From assembly GCA_938038785.1 (NCBI GenBank), contig CALHTB010000011.1:62001-126000 (forward strand): a stretch of 64,000 nucleotides of DNA. Reading direction: 5' to 3'. Source of the DNA: an uncultured Acidimicrobiales bacterium. GTDB lineage: Bacteria > Actinomycetota > Acidimicrobiia > Acidimicrobiales > SHLQ01. Numbering within the stretch: position 1 is the first letter of the stretch; every line of letters starts with the position of its first letter. The position numbers and the translations under genes were made by a program. This document shows positions 55,484 to 61,237 of the stretch, in pieces. Under the pieces are notes generated by a model that ran no database searches, was not told where the DNA came from, and saw nothing but the letters and a program-made list of their open reading frames with translations.

Positions 55484-58339
55484 TTACGACACCCGGACAG
55501 GAGTTTCGCCGATGAGGTCATCGCCAGTGCCACCGCGGACAAAGTCGATGCTCTGGGGATCGACGATGGTGTCGTTCGCCCTGCCGCCGCCCACGGTGTC
55601 TCCGCCCGGTCCGCCGGTGAGGATGTCGGTACCGGCTTCGCCAAAGACCTCATCGTTTCCGCGGCCGCCGGTCATCGTGTCTGGGCCATCCCCGCCACGG
55701 AGTACATCGTTGCCTCGACCGCCAAAGGCAATGTCGCCGCCGGCGCCACCCGACATAGTGTCTGCGCCTCGTCCACCAGCGACAACATCGCTGCCGAATC
55801 CGCCGCGAAGAACGTCATTGCCCGCTTCGCCGAGCAGCGTGTCGTCGTCGCCGTTGCCGTCGATGATGTCGTCACCCGACCCGCCGTACAGGCGGTCGTT
55901 GCCGGCCGATCCGAAGAGCACATCATCGCCGGGCCCTCCGAAGATGATGTCGTCGCCACCGAAACCGGTGATTCGGTCGTTGCCGCCGCGACCACAGATG
56001 ACATCGTCGCCCGCGGTGCCTCGTAACGTGTCGTCGCCCGTGGTGCCGACGATGGTGCACACGACAATTCGGTCGCCCTCGCAGACATTCCCGATGCCAT
56101 CAGCGTCGGCGTCGAACTGGTTTACCTGACTGACCGCCGGGCAGTTGTCGATGAGGTCGGGAAAGCCGTCGCCGTCAGCGTCGCCGCGAGGGCCGTCGAG
56201 GTGGTCGGCGTCGCAATGGTCGGGCAGGCCGTCCAGGTCAACATCGCTCAACGTCGTCGTCGCCGTGTTCGGGCATGGGTCGATTCCGTCGGCAAGGCCA
56301 TCGCCGTCGTCATCGGAGTCGCATTCGCCAGACACGCCATCGCCGTCGACGTCGGTGGGGAACGGATCAAACGCGTTGCAGTTGTCGTTGTGGCCGTCTC
56401 CATCAGCGGTGACTCGGACCAGGATCGAGGATTGAACGAGTTCGCGGCTGGTCTCGACCGAGACGATGAGTTCGTGTTCACCGGTGCCGAGCAGGCCGGG
56501 ATCGACGGTGGTGTCCTGGCCGGCGGCAACAATGACGCCGTCCAATCGCCAGGTCACGGTTGCGTTAGTGGGTCGCGCTACTTCGATATCGGCGGTGAGC
56601 CGAGCAGGTGTTCCAAGCACCGCGTCGATCGTGCGCGCAGTTACGCCCAATATCTGTGGGGTTTCGGCTGGCGCAGGAAGGGCTGCGGCAAGCTCGTCGG
56701 CATCGGCCCACTCAATAGTTGCACCCGCATTCGTGGTGATGGCTTCGAACTCGCGCGCCTGTTCGGTGTCGTTGGCAATGATCGTGATTTGCGCGTCGGT
56801 TGCGGTCACGGTGTTGCGGAACTCGACGATCTCGTCTTCCGATGCGGGGGCGGCAAACCCATTTACTGCTCGGACGATGATGCGTCGATCGCTCACCGTT
56901 GGGGTGAAGAGCTCGGCACCAGCGGCGATTGAGTTGGAGAGATCACTCAGGCTCGAAACGCCGTCACTCGTCGTCAGGGTTCCGATGGCCGCTGCGAGTT
57001 CATCGCCAGACGTGGCGTATGTCGACACCATTTCTTGCAGCTGGACAGCAGACCGCGGTTCGATTGCGGTGATCACTTCACCATCGTCGGCGACAACCTC
57101 ATCAGCCGCTGGAGCAGCCTCGGGTTCAATCGGCTCGACGGGCAACTCGATAGCGGGCAACTCGATAACGGTGCTGTCGTTTGCCACCGGGGGTGTCGGA
57201 GCTTCGGTCGTTGTGGTTGGCGCCACGGTCGTCGTGGTGGTCGTCGTCGTGGTGGTCGTCGTGGTGGTGGTCGGTGGTGGTGGCCGATTGCTGGTCACGA
57301 CGGGAACGAGCGCCACCGACGGGCTCATGTTGCCGAGCCGGTGGGTCTCGAACCAAAAGTTGGCAGATGACTGCAACGCCACGTGCGACGCTGCATCTTC
57401 GGTTGTCGTGCCGAGTACCAAAACAATTTCGGCAGGTGTGCTGGGAGGTGCGGCCACTGGAGTTCCAACCGGCATCAACACGGAAATGAGCTCAGCTAGG
57501 GCATCGGCACCGGCTGTTGTAGGAGTGGCCGGGTAGAGAGGGTCGCTGGTTAGCCACGAACGTGCGTCGTCCATACGGTGCGCCTCGAACGCATCGTCGG
57601 TCTCCACGAGGACGACCGGCAGGCTGGAGACCGATTCGACGACCGCTTCTCGCAGCGCCCGAGCGGTGTCGAAGACCGCACGCACCTGTGCGTTTCCATC
57701 CGTTGTTGGTTCGCAGCACCGTGAACCCAGCGAAAGACGTGCCTCTGATACCGGCAGTGGGGGAGCGATAAGCACAATGTTCGCGTCCGGAGCTGCCCGG
57801 TGGATCTGTTGAAGCAACGACCGCCAGGAGAAGAACGAGTTGGCAGCTGTCGCCCGGGCGATGCTCGCCTCGGACTGGCAGGTAGTAGCCGAACGAGTCT
57901 CGCGATGCAGGCAACGAGCAGCGAGGGCGGTCCAGTCAAACTCGAGCCCGATGCCTCCGACGACCACAACATCGGTGTCAGCATCGACCTCGGGAACCTG
58001 CTCCTGACCGATGCTCAGCAAGGTCGCCCCGACGCATGACTCGTTTTGCACCAATACGACGGTGTCGGGCGAACCTGCAGCGGCACGTTCTACCGGGCCG
58101 TTCAGTGACATGGCGCAGCGGTCGGTTTGTAGAGGTGCAATCGAGGGCGCCGCGAGGAATCCATCACCCAGGACGGCCACCTTGGCTGACGGCAAAATCG
58201 TTGATTCGACGGGAGTTATTGGTGGAGTCTCGTCACCGTTTTGGCCGAATGCGGTATCGCCGGACAGCAGTGTTGCTGTAAGAAGCAGCGGAATGAGCGC
58301 GCCAACGGCGCGCCGCGAAATCGCACGGCGAGGAGACAT
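55484..58339 (-). CDS. Large secreted mosaic protein with SGNH-like, thrombospondin-3 and RTX repeats
   Basis: 951 aa. A signal peptide (RAVGALIPLLLTATLLSGDT) leads into an SGNH-hydrolase-like region of about 300 residues (VAVLGDGFLAAPS, VVVVGGIGLEFDW, NIVLIAPPLPVSEA, DPLYPATPTTAGADAL). A Thr-rich linker of about 15 consecutive Thr follows, then a region of about 200 residues with VVSDRRIIVRAVNGFAA-like strands. Asp-rich calcium-binding thrombospondin type 3 repeats come next (DSDDDGDGLADGIDPCPN, DADGDGFPDLIDNCP). The C-terminal about 190 residues are RTX nonapeptides of the GGxGxDxLx type (for example GGSGDDIIDGNGDDDTLLGE). Calcium-dependent folding outside the cell is expected, with a possible ester-hydrolase or adhesive role. 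No type I secretion genes are near, and the classical signal peptide argues for Sec export. Confidence 0.85.
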   Translation of the reverse strand: MSPRRAISRRAVGALIPLLLTATLLSGDTAFGQNGDETPPITPVESTILPSAKVAVLGDGFLAAPSIAPLQTDRCAMSLNGPVERAAAGSPDTVVLVQNESCVGATLLSIGQEQVPEVDADTDVVVVGGIGLEFDWTALAARCLHRETRSATTCQSEASIARATAANSFFSWRSLLQQIHRAAPDANIVLIAPPLPVSEARLSLGSRCCEPTTDGNAQVRAVFDTARALREAVVESVSSLPVVLVETDDAFEAHRMDDARSWLTSDPLYPATPTTAGADALAELISVLMPVGTPVAAPPSTPAEIVLVLGTTTEDAASHVALQSSANFWFETHRLGNMSPSVALVPVVTSNRPPPPTTTTTTTTTTTTTTTVAPTTTTEAPTPPVANDSTVIELPAIELPVEPIEPEAAPAADEVVADDGEVITAIEPRSAVQLQEMVSTYATSGDELAAAIGTLTTSDGVSSLSDLSNSIAAGAELFTPTVSDRRIIVRAVNGFAAPASEDEIVEFRNTVTATDAQITIIANDTEQAREFEAITTNAGATIEWADADELAAALPAPAETPQILGVTARTIDAVLGTPARLTADIEVARPTNATVTWRLDGVIVAAGQDTTVDPGLLGTGEHELIVSVETSRELVQSSILVRVTADGDGHNDNCNAFDPFPTDVDGDGVSGECDSDDDGDGLADGIDPCPNTATTTLSDVDLDGLPDHCDADHLDGPRGDADGDGFPDLIDNCPAVSQVNQFDADADGIGNVCEGDRIVVCTIVGTTGDDTLRGTAGDDVICGRGGNDRITGFGGDDIIFGGPGDDVLFGSAGNDRLYGGSGDDIIDGNGDDDTLLGEAGNDVLRGGFGSDVVAGGRGADTMSGGAGGDIAFGGRGNDVLRGGDGPDTMTGGRGNDEVFGEAGTDILTGGPGGDTVGGGRANDTIVDPQSIDFVRGGTGDDLIGETPVRVS

Positions 58340-58421
58340 AGGCGAAATGCTACGCGCCGTGGTGGTCAGATTCGGGGAGGGCAGTGCCTAAGGTTCGCCG
58401 GTCACCTGTCGATTGAGAGGT

Positions 58422-59717
58422 ATGTCATCGGTACCAGCTCCGGCCGCCCAGTATCCCTCGGCGCCATCAACAATTCATGAGCTTGGCGTTCCCGCCAGTC
58501 TCATTGAGGACATCATTCTCCAGCGTCTCGTCATTGACGGTCGCTCGTCAGTGACCCGCATGGCTGCGGCGACTGCGCTCTCCGTTGGCATCGTCGATGC
58601 CACCGTGGACGGTCTTCGTCAGCGTTTGCTCCTCGAGATTCAAGGCATGGACGGGCGCGACTATATTCTCGCACCGACCGAAAAGGGCAAGGTCGAGGCT
58701 GCCAGCCGTGCGGCGGCGATGGCATACGCTGGTTCGGCTCCCGTAGCGCTCGACGACTACACCCGTGTGGTCGAAGCGCAGAAGGGCCGCTCGCCAATCA
58801 CGGCAGCAACTCTCAACGAAGCCTTTAGCGACCTCATCATCGAACCCGGTTTCTTCGATGAGCTCGGACCCGCGCTTGTGTCAAAGGGAGCGGTGTTCCT
58901 TTATGGTCCTCCCGGAACGGGCAAGACCTCGCTCGCAGAGCGCATGATCAAGATGTACAAAGACCCGGTGTTGATTCCACGTGCGGTCGAGTTCGACCGT
59001 TCGATCATCACCGTGTTCGATCCGTCGATTCACGAGCCGGTAACTCCTCAGCCCGAAGGAATGGATGGCCGCTGGGTTCTGTGCCTGCGTCCATGTGTGA
59101 TTGTTGGTGGTGAGCTCACCGCAACGCAGCTCGATCTCAAGCGAGACGACTCGACCGGCGTTTACCGCGCTCCACTCCAGATGAAGGCCAACAACGGCAT
59201 CTTTGTTATCGATGACTTCGGCCGTCAGAAGATGACCCCCGAAGCCCTCCTCAACCGTTGGATTGTCCCGCTCTCACGCCAGGTTGACTTCTTGACGCTC
59301 GCCCATGGTGCGGCGTTCACGATTCCGTTTGACGCCAAGGTTGTCTTCTCGACCAACATGCGTCCCGATCAGCTTGGCGATGACGCGTTCGCTCGTCGTA
59401 TTCCGAACAAGGTGTTTGTGGGTGCTATCGACGCTCCTGCCTTCGACCAGATCCTCGCTGCCGTATGCAAGGGCATGGGCATTGGCTGCAATCAAGAGGC
59501 TGCCGATTACCTCAAGGCCCTCATCAAAGAACAGACTGGCACGGATCTGCGTCCCTACTATCCGGCCGACTTCGCGAAGACCCTGCTGGCAATCTGTGAG
59601 TACGAAGGCCGACCAAAGGTCCTCGATCGAAACGCGATCGACCGAGTTGCCAACATCTACTTCACCAAGAACGACGATGCCGGATCCTGGGAAACCCAGG
59701 CAATGGTTGCTGCGTAA
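58422..59717 (+). CDS. Winged-helix AAA+ ATPase, function unknown
   Basis: 431 aa from ATG 58422 with GAGAGG just upstream. Residues about 15-95 look like a winged helix (LIEDIILQRLVIDGRSSVTRMAAATALSVG, YILAPTEKGKVEAASRA). The ATPase has Walker A FLYGPPGTGKTSLAERM near residue 165, Walker B GIFVIDDFGRQKMTPEALLNRW near residue 260, and sensor VVFSTNMRPDQLGDDAFARRIPNK. The C-terminal lid ends PYYPADFAKTLLAICEYEGRPKVLD. Similar stand-alone ATPases occur near secretion or pilus genes in other bacteria, but none is seen here. I cannot assign a process. Confidence 0.75.
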   Translation: MSSVPAPAAQYPSAPSTIHELGVPASLIEDIILQRLVIDGRSSVTRMAAATALSVGIVDATVDGLRQRLLLEIQGMDGRDYILAPTEKGKVEAASRAAAMAYAGSAPVALDDYTRVVEAQKGRSPITAATLNEAFSDLIIEPGFFDELGPALVSKGAVFLYGPPGTGKTSLAERMIKMYKDPVLIPRAVEFDRSIITVFDPSIHEPVTPQPEGMDGRWVLCLRPCVIVGGELTATQLDLKRDDSTGVYRAPLQMKANNGIFVIDDFGRQKMTPEALLNRWIVPLSRQVDFLTLAHGAAFTIPFDAKVVFSTNMRPDQLGDDAFARRIPNKVFVGAIDAPAFDQILAAVCKGMGIGCNQEAADYLKALIKEQTGTDLRPYYPADFAKTLLAICEYEGRPKVLDRNAIDRVANIYFTKNDDAGSWETQAMVAA

Positions 59718-59790
59718 TTTCCCGGAGCTTCGCTCCTCCAGGGCTCAAATCCGTACGCCACTCGCTGCGCTCCCGGCTCCCTCGATTTCG

Positions 59791-59836
59791 CGCCTGCTGC
59801 GCCGGAGGCGGCGTCCAGTCGTTCGTCCCTCACTCC
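59791..59836. repeat. Outer inverted repeat, left copy
   Basis: 46 bp whose reverse complement, starting GGAGTGAGGGACGAACGAC (exact over 19 bp), matches 61038-61083 with about five mismatches by eye. With the right copy it brackets a 1.2-kb block holding a GNAT gene. The surrounding 59718-59900 is rich in GC dyads but contains no gene I can support. Confidence 0.7.
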
Positions 59837-59906
59837 TTCCGGTGCTGGCGAGTCCTTTGTGCGTATACAGGATCTCGCGTTGACGGGGGTCTGCTCCGCT
59901 GTCGCT

Positions 59907-60018
59907 GGTTAGGTACCAGGCTCCTAATCGCCAAAAGGAACGTGGCACCTTTTTGCCAAAAAAGAGGGGATAGCGCCAAAACCACCCTGACCCCTTTTCG
60001 CAAAAGGGGTCAGGGCAC
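59907..60018. repeat. Hairpin repeat block, copy 1
   Basis: Two shared elements in order: GGTTAGGTACCAGGCTCCTA followed by AAAAGGAACGTGGCACCTTT, then CAAAACCACCCTGACCCCTT with its partner AAAAGGGGTCAGGGCAC. The TGACCCCTTTT/AAAAGGGGTCA part is a perfect stem around CGC. The same elements in the same order and orientation recur at 60756-60946. Together with the flanks this fills the 439-bp gap between the AAA+ and GNAT genes. Confidence 0.8.
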
Positions 60019-60156
60019 TTGAACGAGAGTGAGACGGAACCGATGGGTGCCATCCAACAACGGCGTCAGCTGCTTGCAGACGCCCCGACCCGGCAATCCG
60101 GCCTTGGTGATGCAGTATGACGGTCGTGCTGAGCAGAACGACCGGTGGCGCAGTCC

Positions 60157-60699
60157 ATGATTGAGACCGACCGACTTCTTGTCCGGCCGCCCGTCGAGGA
60201 CGATCGGGCTCGCTTCGTCGAGTTGTTCACCGATGAGGCGTTCACGGTCTGGTCGGGCGGAGTGCATGACGTTGCCTCAGCCAACGAACGCTTTGATGGC
60301 ATGTTGGTGCTCGCCGATGCCGTGCCATACGCCAAGCAGCCCGTGATCGAGAAAGACACGGGAACGATCGTCGGGTACAGCGGTGTGGGCACCGTGGTGT
60401 TCGAGGGTCTTGATCGGCTCGAGTGGGGATGGCGGTTCGTCCCCGCTGTCCGAGGGAAGGGCTATGCGACGGAAGCAACAAAGGCGTTGCTCGACCTCGC
60501 CGACTCACAAGGCAACGGCGAGATGCTGTGCATCATCGCCACTGGAAATAACCCATCGATGCGGGTGGCCGAGAAGGCTGGCTTTCACAAGTGGCGCACC
60601 CACGTATGGGACGAGGCGCCAGGACAAGACACCCAGCTGCTTCTCCGGTCGATTGGTGCTGGTGGCGAGCCGATGCTGGCTCCCAACCCCAACGGCTAG
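60157..60699 (+). CDS. GNAT family N-acetyltransferase
   Basis: 180 aa from ATG 60157 (MIETDRLLVRPPVEDD), the standard opening of RimJ/RimL-type acetyltransferases; GTG 60145 is an alternative. The acetyl-CoA loop is VRGKGYATEATKALLDLA near residue 107 and the C-terminal GNAT pattern is NNPSMRVAEKAGFHKWRTHVW. It would acetylate an amine on a small molecule or protein N-terminus; substrate unknown. It is the only gene in a block bounded by direct hairpin repeats (59907-60018, 60756-60946) and outer inverted repeats, so it may have moved as a cassette. Confidence 0.87.
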   Translation: MIETDRLLVRPPVEDDRARFVELFTDEAFTVWSGGVHDVASANERFDGMLVLADAVPYAKQPVIEKDTGTIVGYSGVGTVVFEGLDRLEWGWRFVPAVRGKGYATEATKALLDLADSQGNGEMLCIIATGNNPSMRVAEKAGFHKWRTHVWDEAPGQDTQLLLRSIGAGGEPMLAPNPNG

Positions 60700-60755
60700 A
60701 GCTGCAACGAGAGGCGAGGCTCGGGAACGCTCACGCCGAGGACGTCCTCTTTGCT

Positions 60756-60946
60756 CGTTAGGTACCAGGTTCCTAATCGTAAAAAGGAACGTGGCACCTT
60801 TTTGCCCAAAGGTGCCACGTTCGTTTTCATCTGTTGGTCGTTGAATACCGGGGGAAAGCGTGCAGATCTGCACGGGTTTTGCTGGTATTCGAAGCCAGGT
60901 GCCTCAAAACCACCCTGACCCCTTTTCGTAAAAAGGGGTCGGGCAC
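60756..60946. repeat. Hairpin repeat block, copy 2, split by an extra hairpin
   Basis: Same orientation as copy 1. The first element here forms a full stem: 60787-60801 pairs with 60808-60822 (GAACGTGGCACCTTT and its complement). The second (CAAAACCACCCTGACCCCTT, from 60905) has one change, CGGGCAC for CAGGGCAC. Between them sits an extra nested hairpin: GAATACC (60843-60849)/GGTATTC (60884-60890) around the 16-bp palindrome CGTGCAGATCTGCACG (60859-60874). Confidence 0.8.
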
Positions 60947-61037
60947 AAAGTGGGAGCAGGGCACAGGGGTGGAGCGTCGGCTGTCGGGTTCCCCTGGTCC
61001 GTCGCTTATACGCATAGACGAATGCTTGCCGCGTGCG

Positions 61038-61083
61038 GGAGTGAGGGACGAACGACCAGGCGCCGCCTCAGGCGCAGCAGCCG
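61038..61083. repeat. Outer inverted repeat, right copy
   Basis: Inverted counterpart of 59791-59836; GGAGTGAGGGACGAACGAC is exact over 19 bp and the next 27 bp match with about five differences. The following 61084-61237 holds AGCGAAGCGA-type extragenic repeats (for example ACACCGAGCGAAGCGAATGT) and no gene, completing the 538-bp gap between the GNAT and sulfite-oxidase-like genes. Confidence 0.7.
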
Positions 61084-61237
61084 AGCACCCAAAGCGAAGC
61101 GACGGTGCGACCGCTGGAGGGGCGAAGCCCGGGAAACAAGCGCTCACGGCCTCCGGCCGTCCGCAGAGCACACCGAGCGAAGCGAATGTGCGATTGCCGG
61201 GAGCGAGGAACGAGCGGGAAACTCAGTTCCGGGGAAA

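Follow-up and report, generated by a model that had tools for sequence, protein, structure and literature searches.

A mosaic of hairpin repeats that probably gained a single acetyltransferase gene, framed by modular hairpin units often placed at stop codons, in an uncultured Acidimicrobiales bacterium

Introduction

To our knowledge, REPs and their associated RAYT genes have been seen as giving rise to short palindromes dispersed through genomes, and not to gene gain. MITEs, and the palindrome-associated non-autonomous derivatives of IS200/IS605, are small and gene-free, with discrete ends and hairpins near these ends. Integron attC sites carry the boxes RYYYAAC and GTTRRRY, while d(GCGNAGC), with its GNA loop, forms an extraordinarily stable DNA mini-hairpin. 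A REP subclass without GT[AG]G has been described (PMC6006769). For GTAG repeats, Proteobacteria, Cyanobacteria, Chloroflexi and PVC are named as carriers and REP dimers inserted within longer palindromes are reported, the word actinobacteria not occurring in the text (PMC3733652). In Escherichia coli, REPs located less than 16 nt from a stop codon were reported to lower translation (PMC12306157).

We describe here a block of hairpin repeats that surrounds a lone GNAT acetyltransferase gene, within a window (the whole stretch of DNA analysed) of 64,000 nucleotides.

Materials and Methods

The source genome (G000) is a draft of 3.67 Mb in 134 contigs, 73% complete, and the window lies on a 136-kb contig. 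The repeats of the block were compared with 20 first-order Markov resamples of the 1.9-kb region. Pfam was run on the GNAT gene and its two neighbours. Repeat units were recognised by their similarity to the two arms of the window, within loci chosen because they matched, so that the copies are related and the counts made on them are not independent; 63 units were found, 61 remained without overlaps, and 48 of these had a complete end. R1 is a covariance model built from 19 units. For the stop-codon test, ORFs were called mechanically (at least 120 aa, third-position G+C of at least 0.6), and the control consisted in shifting the reference point to 58 other offsets.

Results

The hairpin-repeat block and its GNAT gene fill the entire gap between the stop codons of two convergent genes, as follows.

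58413-59717, plus strand: AAA-ATPase gene, left neighbour in the convergent pair; TTTCCCGG of the left unit comes immediately after its stop TAA
59718-59900, minus strand: left repeat unit (S1 start, K3 hairpin), fixed end at 59718; R1 114 bits, E 2.8e-26
59791-59836: left arm of the 46-bp inverted repeat, core of the left unit (repeat comparison)
59904-59961: h1 REP hairpin cluster, copy 1, truncated (repeat comparison)
59977-60018: h2 hairpin (CCCTGACCCCTTTT..AAAAGGGGTCAGGG), copy 1 (repeat comparison)
60145-60699, plus strand: GNAT acetyltransferase gene, 184 aa, single copy, not here in relatives; Pfam Acetyltransf_3, 1.8e-23
60753-60833: h1 REP hairpin cluster, copy 2, complete (repeat comparison)
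60843-60890: nest palindrome (GAATACC..GTGCAGATCTGCAC..GGTATTC), a separate repeat (repeat comparison)
60905-60946: h2 hairpin, copy 2 (repeat comparison)
60987-61136, plus strand: right repeat unit (S2 start, K1 hairpin); R1 166.4 bits, E 5.5e-39
61038-61083: right arm of the 46-bp inverted repeat, core of the right unit (repeat comparison)
61137-61237, plus strand: what is left of two further unit ends, with GGGAAA at 61216 and at 61232, the second abutting the right neighbour's stop codon
61238-62971, minus strand: molybdopterin oxidoreductase gene, right neighbour, convergent

The repeats reported by an earlier sequence-only reading are present at the coordinates it gave. The 46-bp inverted repeat pairs at 41 of 46 positions, against a best match of at most 31 in the resamples; taken there as the outer boundary of the block, it is real as a repeat, its arms being only the core of two longer units. 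The two hairpin blocks in direct orientation (59907-60018 and 60756-60946) do share their elements in the same order: the pair 59904-59961 / 60753-60810 is identical at 53 of 58 positions (resample best 33), and the pair 59977-60018 / 60905-60946 at 88%, the best 42-base direct match in the region being 39 and the resample best 27. The repeats of the block thus stand far above resampled sequence, and the observation is confirmed. The GNAT gene lies between the blocks as described, and the ORF list contains no transposase-sized coding ORF beside it, on which ground an insertion sequence was rejected. A promoter scan of the block returned no promoter-like site; five terminator-like sites, against 1.8 expected, all fall inside or beside the hairpins listed above. 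Across the whole window no Rfam model matched at its gathering score, and a known RNA family was rejected accordingly. Elsewhere in the window, a 951-aa ORF (55484-58339, minus strand) carries, by eye, a threonine-rich stretch and RTX-like / thrombospondin-like calcium-binding repeats.

The inner hairpins recur in the genome. A 14-mer of h1 was found, with up to one mismatch, at 22 sites, against 3 for the reversed pattern used as control. The h1 hairpins flank a RAYT (PF01797) gene on both sides at contig C37, and RAYT genes of two relatives (G008 and G010) have a related form of h1 at their flanks. As far as sequence comparison goes, h1 is a REP-type hairpin. By reading, a GTAG / CGTC foot is not consistent (GTTAGG in h1 of the window, GTAGG at C88, others elsewhere), which weakens this assignment and is compatible with the subclass lacking GT[AG]G. 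The source genome has five RAYT genes (loci L049, L050, L051, L052 and L053) with differing flank palindromes, read as GGCGGATTAGGGACAGTCCCTAATCCGCC at C88, AGGGACAGTCCCT at C96 and TATGGGGACAGGCCCCATA at C54; the RAYT gene of C15 is flanked by GGGGTCTGACCCC and GGGGTCAGACCCC, which h2 resembles in part only. The nest palindrome occurs within several composites, by itself at C22 and in two copies at C1. Among 25 RAYT loci (two of which repeat others, the genome being 73% complete), it matched in L050 only, namely in the C88 composite, more than 5 kb from the RAYT gene, and in one weak partial match.

Composites with the order unit-h1-nest-h2-unit, whole or partial, were found at C88, C66, C47, C31, C22, C3 and in the window. 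The palindrome that the first reading saw as an extra element splitting copy 2 is indeed there, but is not extra, since the order h1-nest-h2 is the normal one at other loci. Its insertion into copy 2 was dropped, as C88 and other loci carry it, and copy 1 more likely lost it. Without core 1 (the first h1-h2 copy) and the GNAT gene, the block aligns end to end with the C88 composite (459 identical of 549 aligned positions). The convergent junction at C88 leaves 21-31 bp between matches in G001, G002, G007 and G009, and with units it reaches about 490 bp in G006 and about 610 bp in the source genome; it is a second junction with a similar history. By reading, the right flank of copy 2, AAAGTG, resembles that of the C47 composite and the right flank of copy 1 does not, as resident outer flanks would lead one to expect.

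The state of the junction in relatives points to an order of events. Clear AAA-ATPase orthologues exist in eight of the ten other genomes of the genus; the oxidoreductase adjoins them convergently in seven, and in the eighth (G008) the contig ends. The gap between tblastn matches of the neighbour pair is 13 bp in G001, 25 in G007, 50 in G003 and 50 in G004, and is longer in G010 (137 bp), G006, the nearest relative (411 bp), and G005 (459 bp, with other repeats). A clean absence thus holds for four genomes, with 13-50 bp, and not for G005, G006 and G010, which carry repeats there. The GNAT gene stands between the two neighbours in none of the seven relatives having both genes on a contig, so that its conservation in position without the repeats, for which we looked, was not seen. 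In G006 the junction consists of two repeat units with a short stretch between them, and lacks h1, h2 and any gene. From these gaps and from the G006 state, the likely order runs from a tight junction, through the settling of two units, to the appearance of hairpins and gene in the source genome. The junction holds differing repeats according to the relative (L090 in G006, L096 in G005, L091 in G010). It may simply be a repeat-tolerant place, because G005 and G010 carry other short repeats there.

All repeats of the block recur when the genome is searched, whereas the GNAT segment occurs once. GNAT homologues, at about 50-56% identity, lie at other places and outside such repeats in G005, G007 and G009. 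A plasmid search returned 82 records, all below 60% identity, and no nearer source. The G+C content of the gene is 62%, versus 58% and 61% for its neighbours. Cores 1 and 2 agree at 105 of 114 aligned positions, copy 1 being without nest, and their duplication is therefore not recent, given the nine differences. A second lone gene was found at C1 (L072:3109-4224), where an AbiEi-like gene of 313 aa lies between perfect 59-bp nest direct repeats spaced 1,057 bp apart. This gene has many homologues within the genus, and G006 has other sequence upstream at the counterpart of C1. In 40 stretches of the source genome scanned for exact direct repeats 400-3,000 bp apart, the finds besides C1 were one short pair, the repeats flanking two RAYT genes, and pairs of simple sequence at a single locus. 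A mechanism cannot be claimed on the strength of two lone genes.

The framing repeat unit is the more interesting part of the block, and what is new here is a modular hairpin element that is often placed at stop codons. These units, of about 150-185 bp and rich in hairpins, form a head-to-head pair at this junction. With 150 of 2,440 first-look candidates scored in the source genome, R1 gave at least 50 matches there at E 1e-4 or better; 18 were found in G006, 10 in G002 and between 1 and 5 in every one of the eight remaining genomes of the genus. G011, which belongs to a neighbouring genus, had four weak matches, and the seven remaining genomes of the family had none. In total 12 of the 19 genomes searched had matches, and the family is restricted almost entirely to one genus among them; within the window, only the two arms matched. 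The unit begins mainly in one of two ways, GCGACAGCGGAGC.. or GGTTCCCC.., has a middle hairpin of one of two kinds, and carries long and end hairpins of several kinds each; these parts occur in many combinations. Its ends, GCGACAGC.. and ..CCGGGAAA, are not inverted repeats. No target duplication was seen by eye at the flanks of 47 outer and 19 inner unit ends, nor at the edges of the block; the 19 inner ends have no common flank, except for two copies in L055. Three unit ends stand in succession at the right of the block (61131, 61216 and 61232) and, by reading, one unit begins within another at C47 and C1, as the insertion of discrete elements would leave. Two inverted units with identical inner flanks surround an endonuclease-III-like (HhH-GPD DNA-glycosylase) gene at C47 (L055:4268-5892), forming a large inverted repeat. 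A recurring cassette made of arms and gene was considered and set aside, this case being read as two separate intergenic elements beside an ordinary gene.

In 28 of the 48 units tested, which are related copies, the fixed end (reverse complement of TTTCCCGG) has a facing stop codon at a distance of 1-10 bp, mostly 3-6 bp, whereas the shifted offsets gave 0.36 such cases on average and 3 at most; the other 20 ends are not so placed by this test. Among 47 ends, the sequence just before the end is often TAA, TAG or TGA followed by one base, or ATA or similar letters. Not all units sit at gene 3' ends, since a head-to-head pair at C66 (L054:11577-11932) has rplU on one side and a divergent ABC-transporter-like gene on the other, and is upstream of both genes.

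The unit hairpins retain their pairing while their sequence changes. The upper stems of the long hairpin read CATC/GATG in 8 cases, GCTC/GAGC, CACC/GGTG and CCCA/TGGG in 2 each, and CACA/TGTG in 1; of 18 K stems caught, 17 are complementary, a single G-T pair occurring in two of these, and the 18th is unpaired. In 36 of 61 units the end hairpin was caught as GGC-GNA-GCC, GAGC-GNA-GCTC or GGGC-GNA-GCCC. These exchanged stems are clearer evidence of pairing than the covariation found by RNAalifold, which gave double changes in 5 of 24 and 3 of 31 pairs and small covariation terms (-0.98 and -0.83 kcal/mol). The heptamer GCGNAGC occurs 159 times in the 61 units, against a mean of 9.2 and a maximum of 19 after base shuffling, a count that partly reflects the common descent of the units. 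One-letter neighbours of GCGAAGC number 88 at position 4 and 7 at the other six positions together. This pattern hints at selection on single-stranded DNA, though the common descent of the copies may also account for it.

Discussion

The block appears to be not a recurring cassette but a mosaic repeat element that gained a gene, since the GNAT segment is single-copy, its relatives lie outside such repeats, and the composite also exists gene-free. The sequence-only reading had hesitated between a non-autonomous cassette and a composite of REP units distinct from an insertion sequence. The former, as a recurring mobile unit, did not stand; the latter is borne out, h1 flanking a RAYT gene, the blocks recurring genome-wide and a transposase being absent. 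We consider that the block is a bacterial interspersed mosaic element to which one gene was added later by recombination between cores, with a probability of roughly two in three (0.68). The GNAT gene, together with a duplicated core, would have entered a pre-existing mosaic, because the block minus the GNAT segment aligns with another composite.

From a mechanistic point of view, the framing units would have settled at the junction before the gene did. A DNA molecule carrying the GNAT gene and one core may then have recombined with the resident core by a single crossover, either of the RecA type or through a RAYT acting on the hairpins; this would duplicate the h1-h2 core around the gene, and copy 1 would afterwards have lost its nest palindrome. 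Such a crossover between a resident and an incoming core would be the simplest account. Independent arrival of two cores is possible, and was counted against the best explanation. The arm modules differ between the source genome and G006, and for this reason gene conversion may have replaced the arms, or each may have reached the junction on its own.

Other explanations were weighed against this history. A true non-autonomous cassette, in which the segment from core to core is moved in trans by a RAYT or another HUH transposase recognising the directly oriented hairpins, in the manner of IS200/IS605 ends, draws on the direct orientation of the two cores, on the five RAYT genes with palindromes at their flanks, and on the AbiEi-like lone gene between its perfect 59-bp repeats. 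We hold it to be unlikely, as the flanking cores differ at 9 of 114 positions, GNAT is single-copy with its relatives outside such repeats, and the 40 stretches yielded only one further lone gene of this kind. A bolder proposal, somewhat more doubtful still, would make the unit a new single-stranded DNA element, selected for GCGNAGC mini-hairpins, inserting with its fixed end at stops and exchanging hairpin modules among copies; the REP and nest palindromes in its middle would be integration sites where HUH enzymes (RAYTs) capture lone genes such as GNAT and the AbiEi-like one, in an integron-like manner.

That GNAT is instead an old gene of the junction, lost in the relatives while repeats accumulated around it, would suit its G+C content, near that of both neighbours, and its homologues in three relatives. 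This is improbable given that all seven relatives having both neighbours lack it at the junction, several of them with a gap of 13-50 bp, and that the homologues lie at other places. Least probable of all, and hardly to be believed, is a repeat-caused misjoin that put GNAT here: the genome is a draft of many contigs with numerous and similar repeats, but the block stands between its two conserved neighbours on a single 136-kb contig, so that two compensating misjoins would be needed.

Within the preferred history of a mosaic that later received a gene, the units would have spread as discrete elements whose presence at stop codons is tolerated, and may there influence the termination of translation, the 3' ends of mRNAs or convergent transcription. 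By analogy with the E. coli REPs that lower translation near stops, a similar effect of the units on translation is possible. Gene-sized inserts between REP-type or palindromic direct repeats, in one genome together with RAYT genes, make gene movement by RAYTs testable. A unit placed at stops far above chance, with free loops and kept stems, raises the question of whether single-stranded DNA is under selection, or RNA, at the 3' ends of genes. Our literature search found no paper on the framing unit or on REP-bounded gene capture, which is no proof of absence.

Compared with known systems, the locus resembles MITEs and IS200/IS605 derivatives in its small, gene-free units with discrete ends and hairpins near them, but differs in that the unit ends are not inverted repeats, no target duplication was seen and no parent element was found. 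The ends of the palindromes, by reading GAATACC / GGTATTC in nest and GTTAGGT / TCCTAAT in h1, do not match the attC boxes. As in the E. coli REPs near stops, hairpins directly follow stop codons; that study counts 446 of 4,072 REPs within 15 nt of a stop (PMC12306157), compared with 28 of 48 unit ends within 10 bp here. The REP/REPIN and RAYT systems share with this genome the dispersed intergenic palindromes, and h1 on both sides of a RAYT gene recalls REPtrons (PMC6006769, PMC3733652); unlike them, the hairpins of the block have no consistent GTAG or CGTC foot, and h2 and nest are only putative REPs. Like BIMEs, the block combines several short hairpin motifs into an intergenic mosaic whose arrangements recur, the REP dimers within longer palindromes being a known precedent (PMC3733652); unlike them, it is framed by long modular units, with exchanged hairpins and a fixed end often at stops.
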